The notes under the pieces were generated by a model that had not been told where the DNA came from, did not search any database, and worked only from the letters and a program-made list of their open reading frames with translations. Made by a program: the position numbers and the translations under genes. This document shows, piece after piece, positions 40,904-51,437 of a stretch of DNA of 64,000 nt; position 1 is the stretch's first letter, and the number at the start of each line of letters is the position of its first letter. The stretch comes from Paenibacillus mucilaginosus 3016 (GTDB lineage Bacteria; Bacillota; Bacilli; Paenibacillales; NBRC-103111): NCBI RefSeq assembly GCF_000250655.1, contig NC_016935.1, positions 6,900,001-6,964,000 on the forward strand, in the 5' to 3' direction.

Positions 40904-42688
40904 TTAGCTTTCCAGGAGCGGCAGGCGGATTTTGACCCGCGTCCCCTCGCCGGGCCGGCTTGTAATCGCTACCCCGTACGGCTCCCCGTACAGCAGCTGG
41001 ATGCGGTCATGCACATTCTGAATCCCGATCCCGGAGAAAAAGTGGCTCTTCCCTCCGTCCGTCGGCAGCTTGTGCTCCCCGGTCAGCCCTTCGATGCCGT
41101 CCCCGTTGTCGACGACCTCGCAGACCAGCGTCTCCCCTTCTCTGGCCACAAGCACATGCACGGTGCCCTGCTGCTTGCGGTTGAAGCCGTGGAAGAACGC
41201 GTTCTCGATGAACGGCTGGATCATGAGCTTCGGTACGTGATAATGCAGGCAGTCGGGGGCGATGAAGAAATTGGCCCGAACCCGGTCCCCGTACCGGACA
41301 TGGTTGATGAAGACATAGCTTTTGAGATTGGATATCTCCTGCTCCACCGTGACCGTCTCGCTGACGTTCCCGATCGCATTCTGCAGCAGCGTAATCAGCG
41401 CGTGGATCGTCGCCGCCGCCTTCTCCTTGCTGTCCTGCTGCACCAGGAACTTGACCGAAGCGAGCGTGTTGTACAGAAAATGCGGATTGATCTGCCGCTG
41501 CAGCGCCGCTAATTCCGCATTGCGCTGCTCCTTCTGCGTGGCCACCAGCTCGTCGACATACTCGTGGAGCTCGTCAAGCATATAGTTGAAGGCATGGCCG
41601 ACCTGCCGCGTCTCGTAGCTGCCTGTCACCGAGACGTAATTCGTGAAGTCGTTCTCCGTAATCCGCGACATCTGGCGGACGAGCAGCGTCAGCGACCGGG
41701 TCATGCCTCTTGTAATCAGGAAGACGATGACCAGCGCTCCGAGCACGAACAGGGAGCAGGTGAGGACGATCGCTTGCTTGTTGAGCATCTGGCCCGAGGC
41801 GAGCTCACTGTCAATGACATTCACGAGGTACACATCGTAGAAAGGCAGCTCCTCCGCGAGGATAATGCTGTCCTTTCCCCATACCTTCCCTTCCATCGTC
41901 CGCACCTGCTGTTCGGTAATCTGCGAAGCATACCGCAGCAGGTCCGGGGTATATTCTCCCCTGTAATCCTCTCTATTACTCGAGACGATGAGGCCCGTCC
42001 GGTCGAGCAGGAATACATCGTTGCCGACACTGGAGAAACTCGCATAGAACTGGCGGAAGTCGCTCTCCCGGACCGCCACATACAGGGTGCCGTAGACTTC
42101 CCCGGTCGAGCGTTCGCGGATCGCCTGCGTGGCGACGATCAGCGGTTCCTTGCTTCCCACATCCGAAGGTCCCGGCCGGTAATACTGGTAGGTCATCTTC
42201 TTCGGCTGCTCGAGGGCCCTGCGCGTCATCTCCAATCCCTCGAGCTGCCTGGCCTGCAGCGGCAGCAGGGACCGGTCCGTCGAGTAGCTCCGGCCGTTGA
42301 CGCCGCTGATCGTGATGCTGACCTGATAGGCGTCGATGATCGACTGAATCCTGTCCATCTCCTGGCGGATCGCGCCGTACTGCCGGGCCATCGTCAGGGA
42401 ATCGCTGTCCCCTTCGGTCAGGAACGACTTGACCGTCCCGCTCTGGAACACGTTGTTGGCAGCGGTGATGACTGTATAATGGAACGAGTCCATGTTCGTC
42501 TTGATCTGGGAGATCACCTTGGCATTGGTAATCCCGAACGTATCGGTGAAGAGCTTCACCGACATGTGCAGCGTAATCCACGACGTGGTCGCCGATACGG
42601 CGACAATGCTGACCACCATCACGGCGATCAGCTTCACGAACAAGCGGCTCTCTTTCCATTTTCCCCACAGCGATCTGATGAGCTTCAC
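40904..42688 (-). CDS. YesM-like sensor histidine kinase
   Basis: A 594-residue membrane kinase. Two membrane helices (near residues 18-40 and 297-318) flank an extracellular sensor region (Cache-like, with NVFQSGTVKSFL and QAIRERSTGEVYGTLYVAV). A HAMP domain, the acceptor histidine in QINPHFLYNTLASVKF, and the ATPase motifs IQPFIENAFFHGF (N box) and DNGDGIEG (G box) follow; the end reads GIGIQNVHDRIQLLYGEPYG and RPGEGTRVKIRLP. Start codon is GTG 42688. The response regulator gene ends 21 bases upstream, so they form a pair controlling the adjacent sugar importer. Unlike its relative at 31825 it has no repeat insertion. Confidence 0.93.
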   Translation of the reverse strand: MKLIRSLWGKWKESRLFVKLIAVMVVSIVAVSATTSWITLHMSVKLFTDTFGITNAKVISQIKTNMDSFHYTVITAANNVFQSGTVKSFLTEGDSDSLTMARQYGAIRQEMDRIQSIIDAYQVSITISGVNGRSYSTDRSLLPLQARQLEGLEMTRRALEQPKKMTYQYYRPGPSDVGSKEPLIVATQAIRERSTGEVYGTLYVAVRESDFRQFYASFSSVGNDVFLLDRTGLIVSSNREDYRGEYTPDLLRYASQITEQQVRTMEGKVWGKDSIILAEELPFYDVYLVNVIDSELASGQMLNKQAIVLTCSLFVLGALVIVFLITRGMTRSLTLLVRQMSRITENDFTNYVSVTGSYETRQVGHAFNYMLDELHEYVDELVATQKEQRNAELAALQRQINPHFLYNTLASVKFLVQQDSKEKAAATIHALITLLQNAIGNVSETVTVEQEISNLKSYVFINHVRYGDRVRANFFIAPDCLHYHVPKLMIQPFIENAFFHGFNRKQQGTVHVLVAREGETLVCEVVDNGDGIEGLTGEHKLPTDGGKSHFFSGIGIQNVHDRIQLLYGEPYGVAITSRPGEGTRVKIRLPLLES

Positions 42689-42709
42689 GGTCTCTCTCCC
42701 CCGGTTTCG

Positions 42710-44254
42710 TCAGGTATGATTCTTGCGGTAGCGGCTCGGAGACATCCCCGTGAACTTCTTGAACACCTTGCAGAAATAGCTGTGGTCCGCATACCCCACG
42801 CGCGCCCCGATATCGGATATCGCCACGTCGCCGGTCCGCAGCAGCTTGGCCGCCTCTTCGATCCGGATGCGGTTCACGTATTCGTTGAAGCCCTCCTTGC
42901 TGTTCGCGGCGAAGTAGCTCGAGAGGTAGGACGGGTTGAAGTGAAAATGCTTCGCCACCTCCGACAGGGTCAGCGGCTCGCTGTAATGCTCGTGAATGTA
43001 CGCGAGCAGCCGCTTCATGTTGGCGTCGACGCGGGGCTCTTCGCAGGTGCCCGCTTCCTCGAGGAACGCGTCGAGCAGCCCGAGCACGCTGCCGGCCGAC
43101 TGCGCTTCGTCGATGCCCTTGAAGTAGGCGTACTTCTCCTCATCGAGCCGCTTCACGTCGAGCCCCGCCTCACCGAGCGCCAGCGTGGTATGGAACAGAA
43201 GGTTGACGAAGAAGGCCTTCAGCTCGAACACATCCGTCTCGTAGTCCCGGACGAAGGCGGCGGCATAGTCCCGCAGCCGGCCGAAGGCCGGCTCAATCTG
43301 GCCGCGCTTCAGCTCCTCGGTGTAGCGCCCCACCTCGAACTCCGGCAGCGCCGCAGGCCTCGGCGGCAGTACAGCCTTCGACAGGAGGCCCGCATCCGGA
43401 AAAAAGAAGCGGTACTGCTGCAGCAGCTTCAGCAGCTCCTCGCGGTACACGGTGCCAAGCTCGGCGAACGAGCCGAACGGCCCGCTCAGGGCCCAGAGCA
43501 GCTCCGGGTCCTGTTCCCGGCTGCCCTCGGCCAGCACCTTGGCTGCCCCAGGCAGCCGGCTGAGCGCGCCCGCTTCCGTGTTCACGAGCAGCACCATCAG
43601 GCCGGGCGACGGCACCCTGTGGCAAACGTATGACACAAGATGCGTGCGCAGCTCCCGCTCGGCCATGGAGGCGAGCCGGTCTGCAGCCGCACTGTCTCCC
43701 GGCCCTCCCGCGCCGCCCGGCAGGATGCAGCCGAGCAGGGCGAAGCTGTCATATGGCAGCGCCTCGGCCCATGCTTCCGGCGTGTCCGGCAGCGGATAGC
43801 CGGACACCGCCTTGTCGATCAGGCTCTCGATCGACGCGCCGCTCTGGGCGGACGCCTGCAGCTTCAGCTCGGGGATGCGGTCCGCCGTGCTTTTCAGCAC
43901 CCGCAGCAGCTCCTGGGACTCCAGGCTCGGCTTCAGGATATAGTCGGCAACCCCGCTCTGGAACGAGGACCGCACGTAGGCGAACTCGCTGAAGCTGCTC
44001 AGCACGATAACCTCGATCTCCGGATAGTTCCTTTTGACAATCCGGGTCAGTTCTTCCCCGTCCATCACCGGCATGACGATGTCCGTCAGAAGGATATGGG
44101 GGCGGAGCTCCTCGATCCGGGCCAGGGCCTCCTGCCCGTTCCCCGCCTCCCCCACAATCCGGAAGCCCTCCGCTTCCCAGTTCAGGTGATGCCTGATCCC
44201 CTGCCTCACCAGCAGTTCATCATCCACGATCAATACCTTGCAGTATTCGCTCAC
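42710..44254 (-). CDS. YesN-like response regulator, AraC output
   Basis: A 514-residue regulator, first gene of its module. Receiver domain: LIVDDELLVRQGI, aspartate in LLTDIVMPVMDG, lysine in DYILKPS. The C-terminal AraC domain reads LTLSEVAKHFHFNPSYLSSY and ISDIGARVGYADHSYFCKVF, ending in GMSPSRYRKNHT. The start codon is GTG 44254 with a G-rich site seven bases upstream. The kinase gene follows 21 bases later. The likely target is the importer operon downstream. Confidence 0.93.
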   Translation of the reverse strand: MSEYCKVLIVDDELLVRQGIRHHLNWEAEGFRIVGEAGNGQEALARIEELRPHILLTDIVMPVMDGEELTRIVKRNYPEIEVIVLSSFSEFAYVRSSFQSGVADYILKPSLESQELLRVLKSTADRIPELKLQASAQSGASIESLIDKAVSGYPLPDTPEAWAEALPYDSFALLGCILPGGAGGPGDSAAADRLASMAERELRTHLVSYVCHRVPSPGLMVLLVNTEAGALSRLPGAAKVLAEGSREQDPELLWALSGPFGSFAELGTVYREELLKLLQQYRFFFPDAGLLSKAVLPPRPAALPEFEVGRYTEELKRGQIEPAFGRLRDYAAAFVRDYETDVFELKAFFVNLLFHTTLALGEAGLDVKRLDEEKYAYFKGIDEAQSAGSVLGLLDAFLEEAGTCEEPRVDANMKRLLAYIHEHYSEPLTLSEVAKHFHFNPSYLSSYFAANSKEGFNEYVNRIRIEEAAKLLRTGDVAISDIGARVGYADHSYFCKVFKKFTGMSPSRYRKNHT

Positions 44255-44407: not shown

Positions 44408-44445
44408 TAAAAAAAGACAGAACCGTCCTAAACGGCTCTGCCTGT
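44408..44445 (-). terminator. Terminator of the TOMM modification operon
   Basis: On the minus strand AGGCAGAGCCGT pairs with ACGGTTCTGTCT (one mismatch) around TTAGG, followed by seven T, about 70 bases beyond the stop codon of the SagB-type gene. The gap 44255-44513 otherwise holds the promoter of the response regulator gene. Confidence 0.8.
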
Positions 44446-44513: not shown

Positions 44514-46067
44514 CTAACCGTGCAAGCCTCCCACCAGTCGGGGACGAGGCAGGCAGCGGCCGATCGGGATTTGGACGAGGCTGGTCAGCCCATGCTGGGA
44601 CAACCGGTACAGCTCGTCACACATTCCGGCCCGAAAGCCAAGCAGCGGACGGCCTCCCATGTTGAGAACGGACGATGCCAGCAGCAGATGATGCAGGAGC
44701 ATGCCGGCTTCCATCTGCTGAATGCGGTATCCCCTATACCCTAATTGGGGAAGCAGATGATCGGCATCACCAGCAAGATGCAGGCAGATCGGCATTTGAA
44801 ACAAATTGACATTGTGAAGGATCATCCCCTGCTGCAGACGGAGCCGATGATCACCGGCAAGCACGCGCCGGAGGGCGTGGGCGGCTGTGTCATAACGGTA
44901 AGCTCCGTCCGGCACGCCTTCGACGTTATAGAAACACCCGTATATAGCGACACGATGCGGGGACGCCTCCCCCGCTCCGTCCAAATCGCTGCGGTACGCA
45001 AAGGAAGCCGCAGCTTCATGCAGCAGGGCGGCCAGCTGCTGTGCCGTTACGCGGCTCAAGACAAATTCGCTTTCGGGCGAATATCTTGCTCGGCCGGCCG
45101 CCGCGAGATCGAAGTTCAGCCGCTTCACTAGAGGCAAATAGACACTCTGCATTCCGCTTTCTGTGCGCACGGATGGCTCTAAACGACGAAACGGCGGCAG
45201 CGTATCCAGCTCCGCCGATTTGTTCATCCAACTCAGCAGCGTGATCTCCTTTACGGTCTTCGAACGCATGAACTGCTGATGCTGAACAGCCGGCAGTTCG
45301 CGGCAAAGCTCATCCGCTGCAGCTTGCACCTGCGCGCCGATGCCGTCGTCGATCCAAGCGATGTCGCGCTGCGCCGAAAGCGGGATAACCGCATACACGT
45401 TCTCCTCCCGGCCGGATAACCCCAGCAGATGGCCAACGGCCGCGTCCAGAAACCGGTAATGAACTCTTGACGAATAGCCGAACCGTTTCGCCGTCTCCAG
45501 CAGCTGCCCCAGCAGCACGCCTGTATCGAGTCCTTGCAGACGATAAGAAAAGGTGTTGTATTTGTAAGCATTTTTCCAAACCATCGCCGATACGAAGACA
45601 ACGCCGAAGCAAGAAGATAGATCGCTGCGGCTGCCGAGAGCCCGGGCCAAATACAAATCGAAGTCACCTTCGCGCAGCAGCACCAGGCGGTGATGCGCTG
45701 CATCGTAATGGTAAACGCCGGGACCGCCGGCTGCCGAGCGTAGATAGACGTACAATTCGTTCGGGTACAGCCCTCCGCCGGATGGGATGAATCTGTGGTA
45801 CGACTGCACCGCAGCGGCATGGACATGACTGACTTGAGTCAATCCATAGGCGTACCAGAGGAAATGTCCGATGTCGTTCAGGCTCGGCTCAGCGGGCATT
45901 CGCCGCGCTTCCAGCGTCAGCGGAATATCCGAGGACAGCGGAACAGCAGGCAGGCCGCGATACAGCTTATAGGACAACGGCTTGTCGTCCCAATCGACCT
46001 CCCAGCCGGGCAGCCCGCTCTCGTAGCCGTCGGCATGAAGATGGCGGACAAACGCTTCCAGACTCAT
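44514..46067 (-). CDS. SagB-type dehydrogenase (TOMM azoline oxidase)
   Basis: FMN-dependent enzyme that oxidises thiazoline/oxazoline rings to thiazoles/oxazoles during maturation of TOMM peptides. The 517-residue chain has two nitroreductase-like halves: residues about 60-250 with RFIPSGGGLYPNELYVYL and YSSRVHYRF, and about 300-500 with SPHRVAIYGCFYN and QQMEAGMLLHHLLLA. The PSGGGLYP loop is a hallmark of SagB/ThcOx proteins. The start at ATG 46067 has a GGGGGGAA site; a TTG at 46100 or ATG at 46082 is possible. It is the last gene of the operon, 65 bases after the YcaO gene. Confidence 0.88.
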   Translation of the reverse strand: MSLEAFVRHLHADGYESGLPGWEVDWDDKPLSYKLYRGLPAVPLSSDIPLTLEARRMPAEPSLNDIGHFLWYAYGLTQVSHVHAAAVQSYHRFIPSGGGLYPNELYVYLRSAAGGPGVYHYDAAHHRLVLLREGDFDLYLARALGSRSDLSSCFGVVFVSAMVWKNAYKYNTFSYRLQGLDTGVLLGQLLETAKRFGYSSRVHYRFLDAAVGHLLGLSGREENVYAVIPLSAQRDIAWIDDGIGAQVQAAADELCRELPAVQHQQFMRSKTVKEITLLSWMNKSAELDTLPPFRRLEPSVRTESGMQSVYLPLVKRLNFDLAAAGRARYSPESEFVLSRVTAQQLAALLHEAAASFAYRSDLDGAGEASPHRVAIYGCFYNVEGVPDGAYRYDTAAHALRRVLAGDHRLRLQQGMILHNVNLFQMPICLHLAGDADHLLPQLGYRGYRIQQMEAGMLLHHLLLASSVLNMGGRPLLGFRAGMCDELYRLSQHGLTSLVQIPIGRCLPRPRLVGGLHG

Positions 46068-46132
46068 TCTGCTTCCCCCCATCGCACCATTAGGAGCCAA
46101 GGTATGGCATTCGCCGGATCAGTCCTGCTCGT

Positions 46133-48076
46133 TTAAGGGAACGGATGCGGATAAGCGTTGAGCTCCTCCGGACGCAATGGCCGCTCCGTGTACCCCAGCT
46201 CGGCCGGCACCCGAAGCACCCTGTCTAGTCCCGCCACCCGGGTGAAATGGTAGCCGAACGTCATCGGCAGCATGCCGGGGATCAGCACCTTCACACAGTG
46301 CAGCGAGTTACGCCGCAGTTCCGGCGTCGTCTGGTCCACTACGATCACATCCAACTGGAGCCGGTGGAACGTGCCGATCATTGCCTTCAAGTCTTCGGTC
46401 AGATCACGGCTCTTCGGCGCGGCTCCAAATTCCTGAGCGAACGTTCGCATCGGCCGGTTTTGCTTCAGCAAAAAGTTTAGCCGCGGCTCCGCCTCGGGTA
46501 AGCTGTATAGCATGGAATGGTCCTCCATGCTCCGCACCAGCGAAGGGTCGCGAAGCATCTTCACATGGTTCTCCCGGTTCGACTCGAATTTATGACTCAT
46601 GGTCAGCGTCATCCCCGACAGCTCGTGAACCGCTCCTTTTGCCGCCCGCACCGGATCCGGGTGCGCTCCGGCCGCACAGATGAGATTGATTCCGTTAGGC
46701 TTCCTGTTTTTCGCCAGCGCCCAAATGCTGGGAATGCCATTCTCCATCGTTGCATTAAACAAGAGCACGTCAAAACCGGCAGCGGCCTGCAATCGGTCCA
46801 CCATGAGGTTCAATTCGCGGTCGCCCGTAGATCGAGGGTCTAGTTGGGGAAGCGGCAGCTGTGCGTACCACGTCAGCAGGAACGAATCGCGCTCCACGAT
46901 TTCCAGCATGCCGTACAAGATCGCTTCCTCCAGGCTTCCACCCAAGGCGCAGCCGTTGGACGTCTCGTACACGAAGCCCTGCCGGCAAGGAGAGCTGTAA
47001 TACGCAAGCCACTGGGGCACCAGCATCGGGCGCTCTTGCGCAAACGAGTACCCCCATACCCAATCCGTCTGGACATCGGGATCGAACGGCCAGAAAGGAA
47101 ATCCCGGCAGCTCATACTGCTCCTTGGCATACAGCCCGACGGAAAGGGGATCGAGCGCTTCCCCCGCCAGCTGCCGCCAGCTGCCGCGAACGACCGGCCG
47201 CTTGCCACGCGGCGCCGTGCCGCAATATCGCTCCAATCCCTCCAATATGGCGGAAAGCTCGCTGTCCGCATAGCAATTCGTCCGGCCCGCCGTCAACTCG
47301 TCCCCATCTAACATCGGAAGATTCATGGTTACATCGGCCAAAGGCGACAACAGATCCGGTATTTTTCCATTCATTAACCCGGTCTTGTAATCGAGATAAT
47401 CCCTGACCAGAAAAGATTTCAGCTCATGGAGCGATCGGCTGCGGTACATGTTCTCGCCGAATTTCGGGCTCGGCAGGAGGGAGATCCGGGCCGCATCCCG
47501 CGAGTCTTCCGGAAGACGTCCGCATACGGGGCAGAGCGGGTCCGGCAGAAAGAAATGGCTGGAGCTGTACAGCGTCTTCAGATTGACGAATACCACATGC
47601 TCTTCTAGGCGGGAGCGGCTGCGGCGCAGCACGCTCCGCGATTCCGCCGCAAGCAGATGGGCCATCTGCAGCAGTCCCGTGCGCGATGCCCACGCGTCGG
47701 ACAGGCCCCCCCCGGTCTCCGTCAAACGATGTTCCAGCTCCCACATTTCCCTGCGGTCGCGTCCCGCGATAAGCTGCCTGGTATCAGCGCATCTGGAGCA
47801 CCCAGGCTGCCCCGGCCTGACCAGCGGCCCGACAACGCCTTCGCCGAAGGCGACGAAACCGCGGAGCCACGGAAGGCCGGCAGCCTCAAGAACCGCCTCC
47901 GCCTCGCGGTGAACGGCGGGATTCCAAGCATCATGCAGGACCAGAGCGAGTTCGACTCCTGCCGGCATTTCCTCTCGGGCATCGGCCAAACGAACGATCC
48001 GGTACTCGGGACTCAGCTCCCCGCACACGAAATCCGCCAGCACACCCTCTCCGACTATGGCTACGACCGCACTCAT
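46133..48076 (-). CDS. TOMM cyclodehydratase, YcaO fused to an E1-like leader-binding domain
   Basis: Converts Cys/Ser/Thr of the precursor to azolines using ATP. The N-terminal part (about 1-230) is the E1-like, leader-peptide-binding region with two Cys pairs, CSRC near 93 and CPVC near 184, that probably hold a structural zinc. The rest is the YcaO domain: ILEGLERYCG and SLEEAILYGMLEIVERDSF are its ATP/Mg-binding segments. The C-terminus ends in PHPFP, the PxPxP motif typical of YcaO cyclodehydratases. 647 residues; start ATG 48076 overlaps the stop of the preceding gene by four bases (ATGA). GGGGAGG lies four bases before it. Confidence 0.92.
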   Translation of the reverse strand: MSAVVAIVGEGVLADFVCGELSPEYRIVRLADAREEMPAGVELALVLHDAWNPAVHREAEAVLEAAGLPWLRGFVAFGEGVVGPLVRPGQPGCSRCADTRQLIAGRDRREMWELEHRLTETGGGLSDAWASRTGLLQMAHLLAAESRSVLRRSRSRLEEHVVFVNLKTLYSSSHFFLPDPLCPVCGRLPEDSRDAARISLLPSPKFGENMYRSRSLHELKSFLVRDYLDYKTGLMNGKIPDLLSPLADVTMNLPMLDGDELTAGRTNCYADSELSAILEGLERYCGTAPRGKRPVVRGSWRQLAGEALDPLSVGLYAKEQYELPGFPFWPFDPDVQTDWVWGYSFAQERPMLVPQWLAYYSSPCRQGFVYETSNGCALGGSLEEAILYGMLEIVERDSFLLTWYAQLPLPQLDPRSTGDRELNLMVDRLQAAAGFDVLLFNATMENGIPSIWALAKNRKPNGINLICAAGAHPDPVRAAKGAVHELSGMTLTMSHKFESNRENHVKMLRDPSLVRSMEDHSMLYSLPEAEPRLNFLLKQNRPMRTFAQEFGAAPKSRDLTEDLKAMIGTFHRLQLDVIVVDQTTPELRRNSLHCVKVLIPGMLPMTFGYHFTRVAGLDRVLRVPAELGYTERPLRPEELNAYPHPFP

Positions 48077-50001
48077 CCGGCCTCCCCCTCTCCCAGCAGC
48101 ACGCCGAAGACGGCGGCAGGACCCTCACGCAAAAACGGCTCCACCGCCAGATCAATCACATATACTTCCCGGCCGCTCCTTTTCAGCTTCCGCATCGCAT
48201 CCCTGACCGCATCCGGCTGTGCCACCGTCACCTCGGCCGGAACCGATAGCTCCAGCGGGGCGTTCGGACCGAGCAGTACGGATTCCGCCTCCACCGCCTG
48301 CGGTGCTCGGCAAGCGGTTCCGTTCTGCGCCTTCATCAGCGCAGCCTGCAGCGCCGTGCGCAGCGCCGTTGTCACGGTCAAGCCGGTGCCGCCGAACCAT
48401 CCGTCCTCCGTGCCCACCCATACGGCCGGAAAACCGCTCACTTCCTCTCCGAGCCCGATCGAAGGCTGTCCCCGCATTGTGGTCAATGCTTGCAAATAAT
48501 ACCGGCAGCGCTCGTCGTCAACCTGACCGAGCCCTACCTGAGTGACAGGAGACTTGCGGCTGGTCAGCCGTGCCCCCAGGTGCTGCGACAAGCAAGCCTG
48601 CAGCCCGCGCGCCAATCCTTCTGCAGCCGTCTCCCCGACACCAATGCCGATGTACTGCTCGGTGTTCACGAGAGCACCCGCGAGCCTCGACACGTACGAC
48701 TCAAGCCCGGCAAGCCCCGATTCACGCCGTGCCTCCTCATGCGTGAGTCCAGAGCAGATCATCTCCGGCAGCAGATCGGCCGGCCCTTCCGACAACGGAT
48801 TGGCGGCCTGGACGCGGCATTGTGACAGGGGAAGCTGTCTAAGGTCCCCTTCCTCCCACCTATGGAGAATTCCCGTTCTCTCCGAAGTTAACATGCCCAG
48901 ATAAGAAAACAGCCCGCTCACTGCGCCGCCGTCCAGCCTCTCCTCGAGTCGAAGCTCCACGTCATCCACCCATCTGGCTGAGGCATTCCATTTTCCGGCA
49001 GCGAGAGGATGCGGCAGGCACGGATGCCAGTTTCCTTCCAGCGTTTCCAGATCAAGCAGATACAGCGAATTTCTCAGCTCCGGCTGGGCGGCTCCCGTCA
49101 CCTGCTTGAAGTGCTCGAATACAATCACATTCGCGAGCAGCGCCCCCGCCGTTGAGGAAAAAGCAAACCGCTCCTTGTCCTTACATACTTCGGACTTGTG
49201 GATGCGCCGCACAGCCGAATCCCAGCAGAACACGCTCTCCGGCTGCACGAGCGGGCCTGCGATGCCGGCCTGATGAAGGCACACGGCGGGAAGCAGCGTT
49301 TTGCGTTCCGCTTGGCATGCTGCACGAAGCAACCGAAACTCCTCACCATCGCCCATCTCGGAGACATAGAGAACCGTATCGAACGGCCGCACGGCTTCCC
49401 TCCAAGCGTCAGCTCCCTTGTTCGGCAGCGTCACCTCTCGGATCTCCACCTCGGAGTCCGTCAAGCGGGCGTGCTCCGCCAAAGCCGTAAGCCGCCTCCG
49501 ATCCGTCTGCAGCGAATCCGTAATCAGCATGCGGAACCGGGGCAGGCCTGACTCCAGAAGCGCCGACACCAGAGAGGCAAACATCGGGCCGGAGCCGACC
49601 GCGAGCACCTTGGCCTGCCGGTAGCACTGAAACCGGTAGGCACCGGAATCGCCGAAGCTTTCGAGAAAAGCGATCTGCCCTGCATACCTGCGGACCGTGT
49701 CCTCCGATAGCACGTGCGGACGGTCCAGGCTCGCATCCCGCGCGAACCCTTTCTGCCTCAGCACTTCCGCGATTTCGTACACCCTGTCCCGATGCGGACC
49801 GGGTAGACCGTCCGTCAATTCCGCCAGTGTGTGCTCCCCGTTGAACATGGGGATGAGCTTTTCCAGCCAGCGGTAGATCATTTCTCCTTGCATGTGGAAC
49901 GTGCCGACGTTATTCCGGAAATAGACGCCGTCGTTCGGAACCGGCAAAAAAAACGTATCCGCCTTTACCTGAAGGCGCGCAGATGGGGTCAGCTTTGACA
50001 T
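48073..50001 (-). CDS. TOMM maturation protein, ThiF/E1-like (heterocycloanthracin type)
   Basis: A 642-residue protein of the group annotated as putative thiazole-containing bacteriocin maturation protein. It has an N-terminal segment with FFLPVPNDGVYFRNNVG and IYRWLEKLIPMFNGEHTLAEL (leader-recognition-like), then a Rossmann-type region starting LAVGSGPMFASLVSALLESG (about 140), as in ThiF/E1 proteins, and a C-terminal YcaO-like segment. Its exact role is unknown; partner to the YcaO protein. ATG 50001 was chosen because AGGAGGG precedes it; the upstream ATG 50085 would add 28 residues overlapping that site. Its 3' end overlaps the YcaO gene by four bases. Confidence 0.85.
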   Translation of the reverse strand: MSKLTPSARLQVKADTFFLPVPNDGVYFRNNVGTFHMQGEMIYRWLEKLIPMFNGEHTLAELTDGLPGPHRDRVYEIAEVLRQKGFARDASLDRPHVLSEDTVRRYAGQIAFLESFGDSGAYRFQCYRQAKVLAVGSGPMFASLVSALLESGLPRFRMLITDSLQTDRRRLTALAEHARLTDSEVEIREVTLPNKGADAWREAVRPFDTVLYVSEMGDGEEFRLLRAACQAERKTLLPAVCLHQAGIAGPLVQPESVFCWDSAVRRIHKSEVCKDKERFAFSSTAGALLANVIVFEHFKQVTGAAQPELRNSLYLLDLETLEGNWHPCLPHPLAAGKWNASARWVDDVELRLEERLDGGAVSGLFSYLGMLTSERTGILHRWEEGDLRQLPLSQCRVQAANPLSEGPADLLPEMICSGLTHEEARRESGLAGLESYVSRLAGALVNTEQYIGIGVGETAAEGLARGLQACLSQHLGARLTSRKSPVTQVGLGQVDDERCRYYLQALTTMRGQPSIGLGEEVSGFPAVWVGTEDGWFGGTGLTVTTALRTALQAALMKAQNGTACRAPQAVEAESVLLGPNAPLELSVPAEVTVAQPDAVRDAMRKLKRSGREVYVIDLAVEPFLREGPAAVFGVLLGEGEAG

Positions 50002-50111
50002 CTCAGCCCTCCTAGCCGTAAACGTCGTTCTCCACTTCGGAATATCCATGATATGAAATCCTATGTACGTCTCTTTGTCCCTCATGCCAGATATCTACTT
50101 TAGAAAATAGC

Positions 50112-50145
50112 GATCACCCATGCACAGCGATGTGCATGGGTGATC
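50112..50145. terminator. Perfect hairpin between precursor and modification genes (attenuator)
   Basis: A perfect 15-bp stem GATCACCCATGCACA / TGTGCATGGGTGATC with a four-base loop (GCGA). On the minus strand it is followed by GCTATTTTC, a poor T run, so it should stop only part of the transcripts. That would give more precursor than enzyme mRNA. Confidence 0.75.
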
Positions 50146-50178
50146 ACTTTACTGCAAGGCGGGAGAAAGATGGAGGTG

Positions 50179-50562
50179 TCAGCGACAGCGATGGCCGCCT
50201 CCGCAGTGATGACAGCTGCCTGCGCAGTGATGGCAGAATCCCGCACAGTTATGACAGCGACCCGCGCAAAAGCCGCCGCAAACGCCTCCACAAACTCCGG
50301 CACATACTCCGGCACATACTCCGGCACAAAAGACACCGCAAACTCCGGCACATACTCCGGCGCAAACCCCCGCACAAACTCCCGCACAAACTCCCGCACA
50401 TAATCCGACGCACAGACGCGCAGGATCCACAGGCACTTGGCCGATCGGATACGGACCGGCGGGATAAGCGGGATACTGGGCCTGCTGTTCCCAAGGCGTT
50501 ACCTCGCTCGCCTGAAACTGCGAAACACCCAACTGCTGAAGCTCATTTTGAAAATTAGTCAT
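50179..50562 (-). CDS. TOMM precursor peptide, heterocycloanthracin type
   Basis: A 127-residue precursor. The leader (about residues 1-49) starts MTNFQNELQQLGVSQFQASE and ends in PIGQVPVDPARL, resembling the leaders of the heterocycloanthracin/sonorensin family. The core has 20 cysteines: from about residue 51 most lie at every fourth position as CAGV repeats (CAGVCAGVCAGV), then CGGF, CAGR and three His-containing units (CHNC, CHHC, CHHC), ending in GGGHRCR. The core contains no Ser/Thr except one Ser, so modification should make thiazoles. GGAGG lies eight bases before ATG 50562. It is separated from the modification genes by a hairpin. Confidence 0.9.
   Translation of the reverse strand: MTNFQNELQQLGVSQFQASEVTPWEQQAQYPAYPAGPYPIGQVPVDPARLCVGLCAGVCAGVCAGVCAGVCAGVCGVFCAGVCAGVCAGVCGGVCGGFCAGRCHNCAGFCHHCAGSCHHCGGGHRCR
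50266..50410. repeat. 12-bp tandem repeat in the precursor core
   Basis: The unit CACATACTCCGG (plus strand), encoding Cys-Ala-Gly-Val, is repeated with changes across the core region. Its period keeps frame, so the number of Cys units can change by whole repeats. Confidence 0.8.
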
Positions 50563-50784
50563 GAGATAAACCTCCGATAATTTTTTTGATGATCATTTTC
50601 CTGATCCTTTGAAGCGAAATGATATCGAATGTTACCGAAACATGATTCCAATTTATGGTCTGAACTCCGCGAATGTTCCTGAGTCAATTGACCCATTTTT
50701 TGGGCGTTTGTACCAAAAGTGACCGGACCGCGAAAATGCCGGAGGTACGGAACCGTGCCTGGTGGTGATCTTTCGAGGCTGCAA

Positions 50785-50906: not shown

Positions 50907-51437
50907 CTATTCCGTCAGAGCATGCTCCCTATACCACTTTCTGAGCTGGCTGATTTGGGCTTGATGATACCGGCTGTGGTCGGCCATGTGCCAGATGCCC
51001 CAACGTATGGTCGCTTGCTTTTCGTTCTCATGTCCAAAAGCGACCCCTCGTACGAGGTCACTATCCGTTAATGATCTGCAGGAATCTCTCAACATGTCTA
51101 CTACTCTTGCATATGTAAAAATCAGTGCGTTCAAAGATACGCCTTGGACCATCGGAAGCCTGCCATTCCCATCCATCATGGGACCATATTGTTCCTTTAA
51201 GGACGCAGGAAGGGGCTGCCCCTTGATTCTGTACACCCAATGCACATCAACAACCATGAGATGTTGGATCAACTGAGCCGTGCTGTTCGCATTGGCATCC
51301 GGTCCCTTGTAATCGACTTCTTCCTGGGACATGCCTTCGGTGATGGATTGCAGACGCCGACTGTTCTCTTTTACAGCGGAATACAGCAGCCCTACAATGG
51401 GTGACATATTGGCTTCCCCTTGTAAATCGTATAGCAT
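50907..51437 (-). CDS. DinB-family protein
   Basis: A 176-residue four-helix-bundle protein of the DinB/YfiT superfamily, which often act as metal-dependent thiol transferases. The family histidines are visible: LIQHLMVVDVHWVY near residue 60 and GIWHMADHSRYHQAQI near 150, which would hold a metal. A start at residue 11 (MSPIVGLLYSAV, 51407) is also possible. Function unknown. The gene is followed by its own terminator and is monocistronic. Confidence 0.8.
   Translation of the reverse strand: MLYDLQGEANMSPIVGLLYSAVKENSRRLQSITEGMSQEEVDYKGPDANANSTAQLIQHLMVVDVHWVYRIKGQPLPASLKEQYGPMMDGNGRLPMVQGVSLNALIFTYARVVDMLRDSCRSLTDSDLVRGVAFGHENEKQATIRWGIWHMADHSRYHQAQISQLRKWYREHALTE

Follow-up and report, generated by a model that had tools for sequence, protein, structure and literature searches.

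The window, by which we mean the whole 64-kb stretch of Paenibacillus mucilaginosus DNA analysed here, encodes the precursor of a heterocycloanthracin (HCA)-family linear azole peptide with a period-4 core, and this precursor is probably transcribed late in sporulation, in the mother cell, from a sigma-K-like promoter. The family membership, the enzymes, the promoter architecture, its conservation, and its match to spore-gene promoters are results of computation. The regulatory context, which was absent from the sequence-only reading made earlier, is a more novel part of the finding than the CAGV core.

Results

The precursor gene and its family

The features of the precursor gene are given below in window coordinates.

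50562..50179, minus strand: precursor peptide gene, 127 aa; leader residues 1–50, core from Cys51; TIGR03601 39.5 bits
50413..50562, minus strand: leader MTNFQNELQQLGVSQFQASEVTPWEQQ..., with VDPARL at its end before the first core Cys (leader alignment A1)
50182..50412, minus strand: core with 20 Cys, 8 CAGV, then CGGF, CAGR, CHNC, CHHC, CHHC, GGGHRCR (translation and 12-bp tandem repeat)
50575..50571, minus strand: ribosome-binding site GGAGG, 8 nt 5′ of the precursor ATG (sequence)

The precursor ORF (127 codons, ATG start) is confirmed as real at the coordinates 50179..50562 given by the sequence-only reading, which did not state the strand; it is the minus strand. In hmmscan against NCBIfam, the precursor matches TIGR03601 (heterocycloanthracin/sonorensin) over residues 1–87 (39.5 bits, cut-off 35, E = 6.5e-10), and the match spans the leader and the start of the core. 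The earlier reading had taken the gene for a TOMM (linear azole peptide) precursor of this family and had proposed comparison with TIGR03601-type precursors; the above-cut-off score and the three adjoining maturation proteins bear it out, and membership is secure. A leader model was built from 28 precursors of other genomes, with close relatives in and the window precursor out, and it recovers the window precursor as the sole leader in the 8.74-Mb genome (E = 2.5e-18). The precursor is without a match in Pfam. TIGR03601, run against all six frames of the same genome, also gave nothing, though the protein passes the hmmscan cut-off; this miss is taken as a putative artefact of searching low-complexity sequence.

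The repetitive Cys-rich core typical of TIGR03601 precursors is present in the window, with 20 Cys and tandem repeats of 12-bp period in the DNA. It is not built on the Cys-Xaa-Xaa unit of the founding B. cereus-group members; that unit is a descriptive trait, membership being set by the model cut-off. Cys stands mostly at every fourth residue, as had been described from the sequence: 15 of the 19 Cys–Cys gaps are 4, three are 3, and one is 6. Eight exact CAGV units and six His were counted, and the CGGF, CAGR, CHNC, CHHC, and CHHC units were found as that description had them. The residues preceding Cys should be noted. Val (9), Phe (3), and Leu (2) precede 14 of the 20 Cys in the window core, whereas family-wide only 30 of 930 core Cys follow a Val, and 717 follow Arg, Asn, Ser, or Gly. 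Full cyclisation in the window core therefore cannot be assumed, and the rod-like product that the sequence-only reading proposed is a prediction.

Relatives and variation of the core

One genome per species was searched with the F protein, the leader-binding maturation protein encoded next to the precursor gene, and 63 loci were obtained. Upstream of F, 60 of them and the window encode a Cys-rich precursor of the leader type; none was found there in loci L009, L041, and L063. The dominant Cys spacing in these 61 precursors is 3 in 44, 4 in 8, 2 in 7, and another value in 2. Four other Paenibacillus (L001–L004) have, at the same place, orthologues that share the leader and have cores of period 4; the cores of these five close relatives, the window included, contain 12 to 20 Cys. 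Period 4 also dominates in three more precursors (L026, L036, and L040). The view of the sequence-only reading that the core pattern is unlike that of described members holds only in part: the core differs from the published Cys-Xaa-Xaa and Cys-Ser/Gly-Cys repeats, but it is not unique, since the four Paenibacillus relatives and the three further precursors share its period.

In a quick YcaO tree with SH-aLRT support only, the window groups with L001–L004 (support 100), all of period 4, and period 4 versus the rest takes at least four changes on the tree. Because these five cluster together, all with period 4 and with 12 to 20 Cys, the CAGV core looks like a lineage variant produced by gain, loss, and drift of units.

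Of the 61 precursors, 52 have a core whose first half is the more hydrophobic one, and in 52 the second half is the richer in His, Arg, and Lys; the gradient exceeds that of unit-order shuffles at p < 0.05 in 39 of 61. Since the gradient is so widespread, the hydrophobic core and His tail of the window precursor are a strong case of a family trend. Three or more His are found in 19 of the 61 cores. In 48 of 61 precursors an Arg stands among the three residues ahead of the first core Cys, and this region is a possible site of leader cleavage. Among His-rich members, a remote HCA-leader precursor (L280, in contig 4 of genome G223) has a core that is almost pure CHH repeat, and the L012 and L042 precursors are likewise His-rich. 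One typical Bacillales HCA cluster (L014) comes from a record titled Pseudomonas sp. ISL-84, perhaps a mislabelled genome.

The maturation operon

The precursor gene lies upstream of the genes for F, YcaO, and SagB, all on the minus strand.

48073..50001, minus strand: F protein (ocin-ThiF-like, leader-binding); TIGR03693 706.6 bits, cut-off 561.9; longest ORF from 50085
46133..48076, minus strand: fused C-D cyclodehydratase (YcaO), C-terminus PHPFP; TIGR03882 149.9 bits and TIGR03604 401.3 bits in one ORF
44514..46100, minus strand: SagB-type FMN dehydrogenase (B protein), two matched stretches; TIGR03605 188.3 bits, cut-off 78.4
44443..44415, minus strand: terminator-like site with 13 pairs and a T run, at which the operon would end

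The HCA cluster proteins, namely the F protein, the fused C-D cyclodehydratase, and the B protein, are thus all present. The true start of the F gene is likely to be the ATG at 50001 rather than 50085, because the profile match begins there, AGGAGG precedes this ATG, and an in-frame stop lies before it in the relative L003. The N-terminal domain of the F protein (residues 40–116) resembles PbtF (8t19), and the nearest named F protein, from P. caseinilyticus, is 90% identical. The F-gene matches in L034 (6001–8498) and L043 (6001–8525) are about 540 bases longer than those of other loci, perhaps through an insertion.

The YcaO part resembles TruD, LynD, and MusD, and PHPFP stands at the YcaO C-terminus in 59 of 63 rows. 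TIGR03882 is matched almost whole by cyclodehydratase residues 69–234, as read against the profile. In HCA clusters, the C domain is described as lacking about 100 N-terminal residues and as not binding the leader (Cox 2015, PMC4603692).

The terminator-like sites between 44.1 and 51.0 kb number 8, against 6.5 expected by shuffling. A histidine kinase and an AraC-type response regulator are encoded at 40904–44254, beyond the site at 44443..44415. Membership of these two-component genes in the operon was considered and rejected; since the terminator-like site follows SagB, they are probably separate. A DinB/bacillithiol-transferase-like gene lies upstream on the same strand (50907–51437), with no sign of cluster membership.

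The putative promoter of the precursor gene

50680..50648, minus strand: promoter-like element AGGAACAT-N15-CATAAATTGG (AC-N17-CATA), sigma-K-like; starts 118 nt upstream of the start codon

A pattern AGTAACAA...CATA(T)TTTGT at fixed spacing was noticed in the upstream regions of the precursors. AC-N17-CATA occurs upstream of 42 of the 61 precursors against 3.4 expected (shuffled mean), and of 53 when GC is allowed for AC. Control ORFs of at least 250 codons from the same loci and the window, some of which may not be genes, carry it in 8 of 241 cases (13.0 expected). Since the motif had been found in the first data set itself, it was tested on further distinct precursors, where it is present in 35 of 52 against 2.9 expected (35 of 48 with a narrower script); since relatives of the same genera are in it, this set is not fully independent. 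The motif is missing from 19 of the first 61 and 17 of the other 52 precursors. Among the 61, ten Neobacillus-type precursors have GC for AC at the aligned site and five Brevibacillus precursors have a spacing of 18. A spacing of 15 is overrepresented too (12 of 61, 3.2 expected; 14 of 52, 2.6 expected), and 8 of the latter 14 cases are the second AC of ACAC. Precursors encoded far from F carry AC-N17-CATA in 14 of 20 cases, two of these with an atypical −35; all 14 come from genomes G104, G219, and G230 of one family, and elsewhere the count is 0 of 6. In the 64-kb window the site AGGAACAT-N15-CATAAATTGG at 50680..50648 is the sole match to its pattern (up to 1 mismatch), and with a longer pattern it is the sole match in the genome (up to 2 mismatches).

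The same architecture is found before known late mother-cell genes of related genomes: dpaA in 26 of 30, yabG in 25 of 28, and sigK in 22 of 23, every other spacing from 12 to 20 occurring in 0 to 6. For spoIVA (27 of 29 loci scanned; 30 fetched), AC-N17-CATA is found in 0 of 27 and ATA-N15-CATA in 25 of 27. In the genome of the window itself, AC-N17-CATA precedes dpaA and yabG, and its sigK is the one of the 23 without it. The published sigma-K consensus is KCACM / GCATANNNTA (PMC3416734, Table 4). The −10 region of the precursor (CATA..TTG) ends in TG, not in the TA of that consensus, as it does in most dpaA genes here. A sigma-70 scan upstream of the precursor gave no site. A SpoIIID site in GGGACAAAT was considered and rejected. 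The window site thus matches the promoter architecture of known late mother-cell genes in related organisms, which suggests that the precursor promoter depends on sigma-K.

The F-gene element and the hairpin

50057..50088, minus strand: conserved noncoding element 5′ of the F gene, GGCATGAGGGACAAAGAGACGTACATAGGATT
50109..50148, minus strand: 18-bp hairpin 3′ of the precursor gene, a putative terminator or attenuator

The F-gene element has the consensus gaCATaAggGACAAATwgc.gTACATA.gATt and lies about 80 nt before F start codons. It is found in 58 of 64 sequences (63 loci and the window) at a score of at least 19 of 26, eight of them at only 19 or 20; the scores of L012, L042, L047, L057, L059, and L063 are below 19. 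A further set contains it in 23 of 29 cases (up to 4 mismatches). The element belongs to F, because it is kept in L009 and L041, where no precursor was found, and adjoins F in L030, where the precursor lies 543 nt away. The genome of the window contains it once (up to 3 mismatches). This genome and 39 related ones contain 27 such places; 20 were fetched, and 18 of these precede an F-like ORF, the two others having 3 mismatches each. The −10-like part of the element equals CATA[AG]GAT of dpaA. A sigma-E or sigma-K promoter was rejected for the element, since its spacing is neither AC-N17-CATA nor ATA-N15-CATA. Its presence before precursors as well was also rejected: only L006 and L004 are clearly above shuffles, L032 is slightly so, and the window is not.

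An unbroken stem of at least 9 pairs follows the precursor in 37 of 61 cases; such a stem is found in 1.4% of shuffled sequences and in 9 of 305 stretches taken at random. The window hairpin has 18 pairs (−33.3 kcal/mol, z = −7.2) and is read as a terminator or attenuator. A search of 44.0–51.5 kb against Rfam (E up to 1) assigned neither the hairpin nor the F element to a known RNA family.

Neighbours and distribution of the clusters

ORFs of at least 90 codons were clustered over 62 loci and the window, L063 being left out, with flanks of 6 kb, or less on short contigs. F and YcaO are found in 63 of 63, SagB in 59, and the precursor cluster, by BLAST, in 24. Apart from these four, no family of such ORFs occurs in more than 9 of the 63 loci; an ABC-transporter ATPase family, named from sequence, is found in 5. 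Likewise, only the cyclodehydratase, F, and B proteins are described as common to all HCA clusters (PMC4603692, section 15).

Downstream of the HCA operon, 10 Paenibacillus loci (L044, L046, L049, L050, L052–L056, and L060) encode a repetitive protein rich in His, Met, Asp, and Tyr (minus strand, about 11.5–12.3 kb). Two members gave no NCBIfam or Pfam match. A sigma-K −10-like sequence, GCATATTGTA, precedes the gene in the 8 loci with a located start, and no AC stands at N17. The protein is possibly a spore coat protein.

Among 299 Bacilli genomes, F scores above the cut-off in 44 and gives any match in 61, the leader model matches in 54, and spoIVA is found in 211; the genome lists were compared by eye. 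All 54 leader genomes, all 44 genomes with F above the cut-off, and 60 of the 61 with any F match are spoIVA-positive, the one F match in a genome without spoIVA (G216) being weak (34 bits). This association is confounded by descent. Six HCA-leader precursors each are found in G219 (L248, L265–L269) and G230 (L254, L270–L274); five of the six in G230 lie far from the F gene, and no match for G219 appears among the F search results.

Discussion

Alternative explanations and the proposed pathway

An ordinary HCA bacteriocin, made by vegetative or stationary cells against competitors from an ECF-type (AAC) or other stationary-phase promoter, is an unlikely explanation but one to be taken seriously. 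The −35 GGAACA/GTAACA of the precursor element resembles ECF sites as well, which counts for it. The family name and the report of sonorensin as a membrane-permeabilising bacteriocin (PMC4544038) point the same way, and a family member is reported as up-regulated in B. cereus biofilm cells (PMC6962202). However, the −10 CATA and the exact N17 equal the dpaA, yabG, and sigK sites in related genomes, no immunity or export family (at least 90 codons) occurs in more than 9 of 63 loci, and spoIVA is found in each of the 54 sampled genomes with a leader match. A metal-binding or coat-like Cys/His peptide, with its Cys free or only partly cyclised, would suit the CHNC/CHHC tail, the His-rich members L012, L042, and L280, the bulky residues before most Cys of the window core, and the His/Met-rich repetitive protein encoded downstream in 10 Paenibacillus loci. 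The complete cyclodehydratase–dehydrogenase set with its PxPxP tail and the reported in vitro reconstitution of HCA thiazoline formation (PMC4603692, section 15) make this explanation quite improbable. A broken or silent relic, its repeats free to drift, might show the range of 12 to 20 Cys that the five close relatives have, but the five related species, and other genera too, keep the frame, leader, upstream element, hairpin, and enzymes intact, so that a relic is hardly credible.

We prefer the reading of the precursor as an HCA-family azole peptide made late in sporulation; the dependence on sigma-K, the formation of azoles in this core, the cleavage of the leader, and the place and role of the product are inferred. 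The core would have drifted to Cys at every fourth residue by gain and loss of 12-bp units. The precursor would be transcribed in the mother cell from its sigma-K-like AC-N17-CATA promoter, with the hairpin after it acting as a terminator and the enzymes under their own conserved promoter-like element. The F protein would bind the conserved leader (FxxELxxL...EvtPW), the fused YcaO cyclodehydratase would convert Cys to thiazolines with ATP, and SagB would oxidise these to thiazoles. A protease whose gene lies elsewhere probably cuts off the leader close to the conserved Arg that precedes the first core Cys. Finally, the peptide would be released, or left on the spore, when the mother cell lyses; this, we propose, would account for the failure to find a conserved exporter, protease, or immunity family beside the clusters.

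Relation to known systems

Sonorensin has His-bearing units, as the window precursor does, with a different core repeat sequence. By published naming, this peptide of Bacillus sonorensis belongs to the same family; activity is reported for sonorensin, whereas none is known for the window peptide. The window cluster resembles the HCA family (TIGR03601; Haft 2009, PMC2674419; Cox 2015, PMC4603692) in its leader, F protein, fused C-D protein, B protein, and gain and loss of repeat units. In contrast, the HCA founders have a Cys-Xaa-Xaa unit (PMC2674419), and Cys-Ser/Gly-Cys repeats are noted elsewhere (PMC4603692, section 15), whereas the window has Cys-Xaa-Xaa-Xaa (CAGV). The window precursor lies beside its enzymes as in B. 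licheniformis, unlike that of the B. cereus group, which is far away. A sigma-K-like promoter, described here for the window precursor, does not appear in the two HCA texts as covered here (PMC2674419 and PMC4603692). The AC-N17-CATA architecture is shared with dpaA and yabG of the sigma-K regulon, but the product here is a RiPP precursor.

Thiopeptides (micrococcin, thiostrepton), which are F-protein dependent, have a related F protein, the N-terminus of the window F protein being PbtF-like, and share with the window an F-dependent fused cyclodehydratase (PMC4603692). They differ in their dehydratase and pyridine-forming enzyme: no lantibiotic-type dehydratase or pyridine synthase was found among the ten proteins scanned near the window precursor (40.9–53.9 kb).

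Paenibacillus mucilaginosus is already listed with LAP clusters, three in three genomes (PMC5100339, Table 1), and again in a table of PMC9956331. The passages covered in the literature searched yielded no description of the CAGV core, and no paper linking heterocycloanthracin with sigma-K was found among the matches listed. Further literature covered, in part, was PMC7470986, PMC7136475, PMC9586298, and PMC12325987.

Significance

HCA azole-peptide clusters form a large group, 254 being counted in one survey (PMC4603692, section 15), and the parts of the texts covered give neither a mature structure nor a settled native role for heterocycloanthracins, which is a reason for interest in them. 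A period-4 core in which most Cys follow a bulky residue is a natural test of the tolerance of an F-dependent cyclodehydratase for spacing and neighbouring residues. A wider claim, on which we are evenly divided, is that the whole heterocycloanthracin/sonorensin family is a sporulation system of many Bacillales: polythiazole peptides under late mother-cell control (sigma-K for the precursors and a dedicated element for the enzymes), with a product on the spore or released with it, not exported by growing cells. If so, the product could be a shield, a metal or UV absorber, or an antimicrobial escort, and the fast-changing cores, with a Cys period of 2, 3, or 4 and a hydrophobic-to-His/Arg gradient, would represent spore-surface or release-time chemistry. 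Judging from sequence, this little-understood family of thiazole peptides may be made by sporulating cells.
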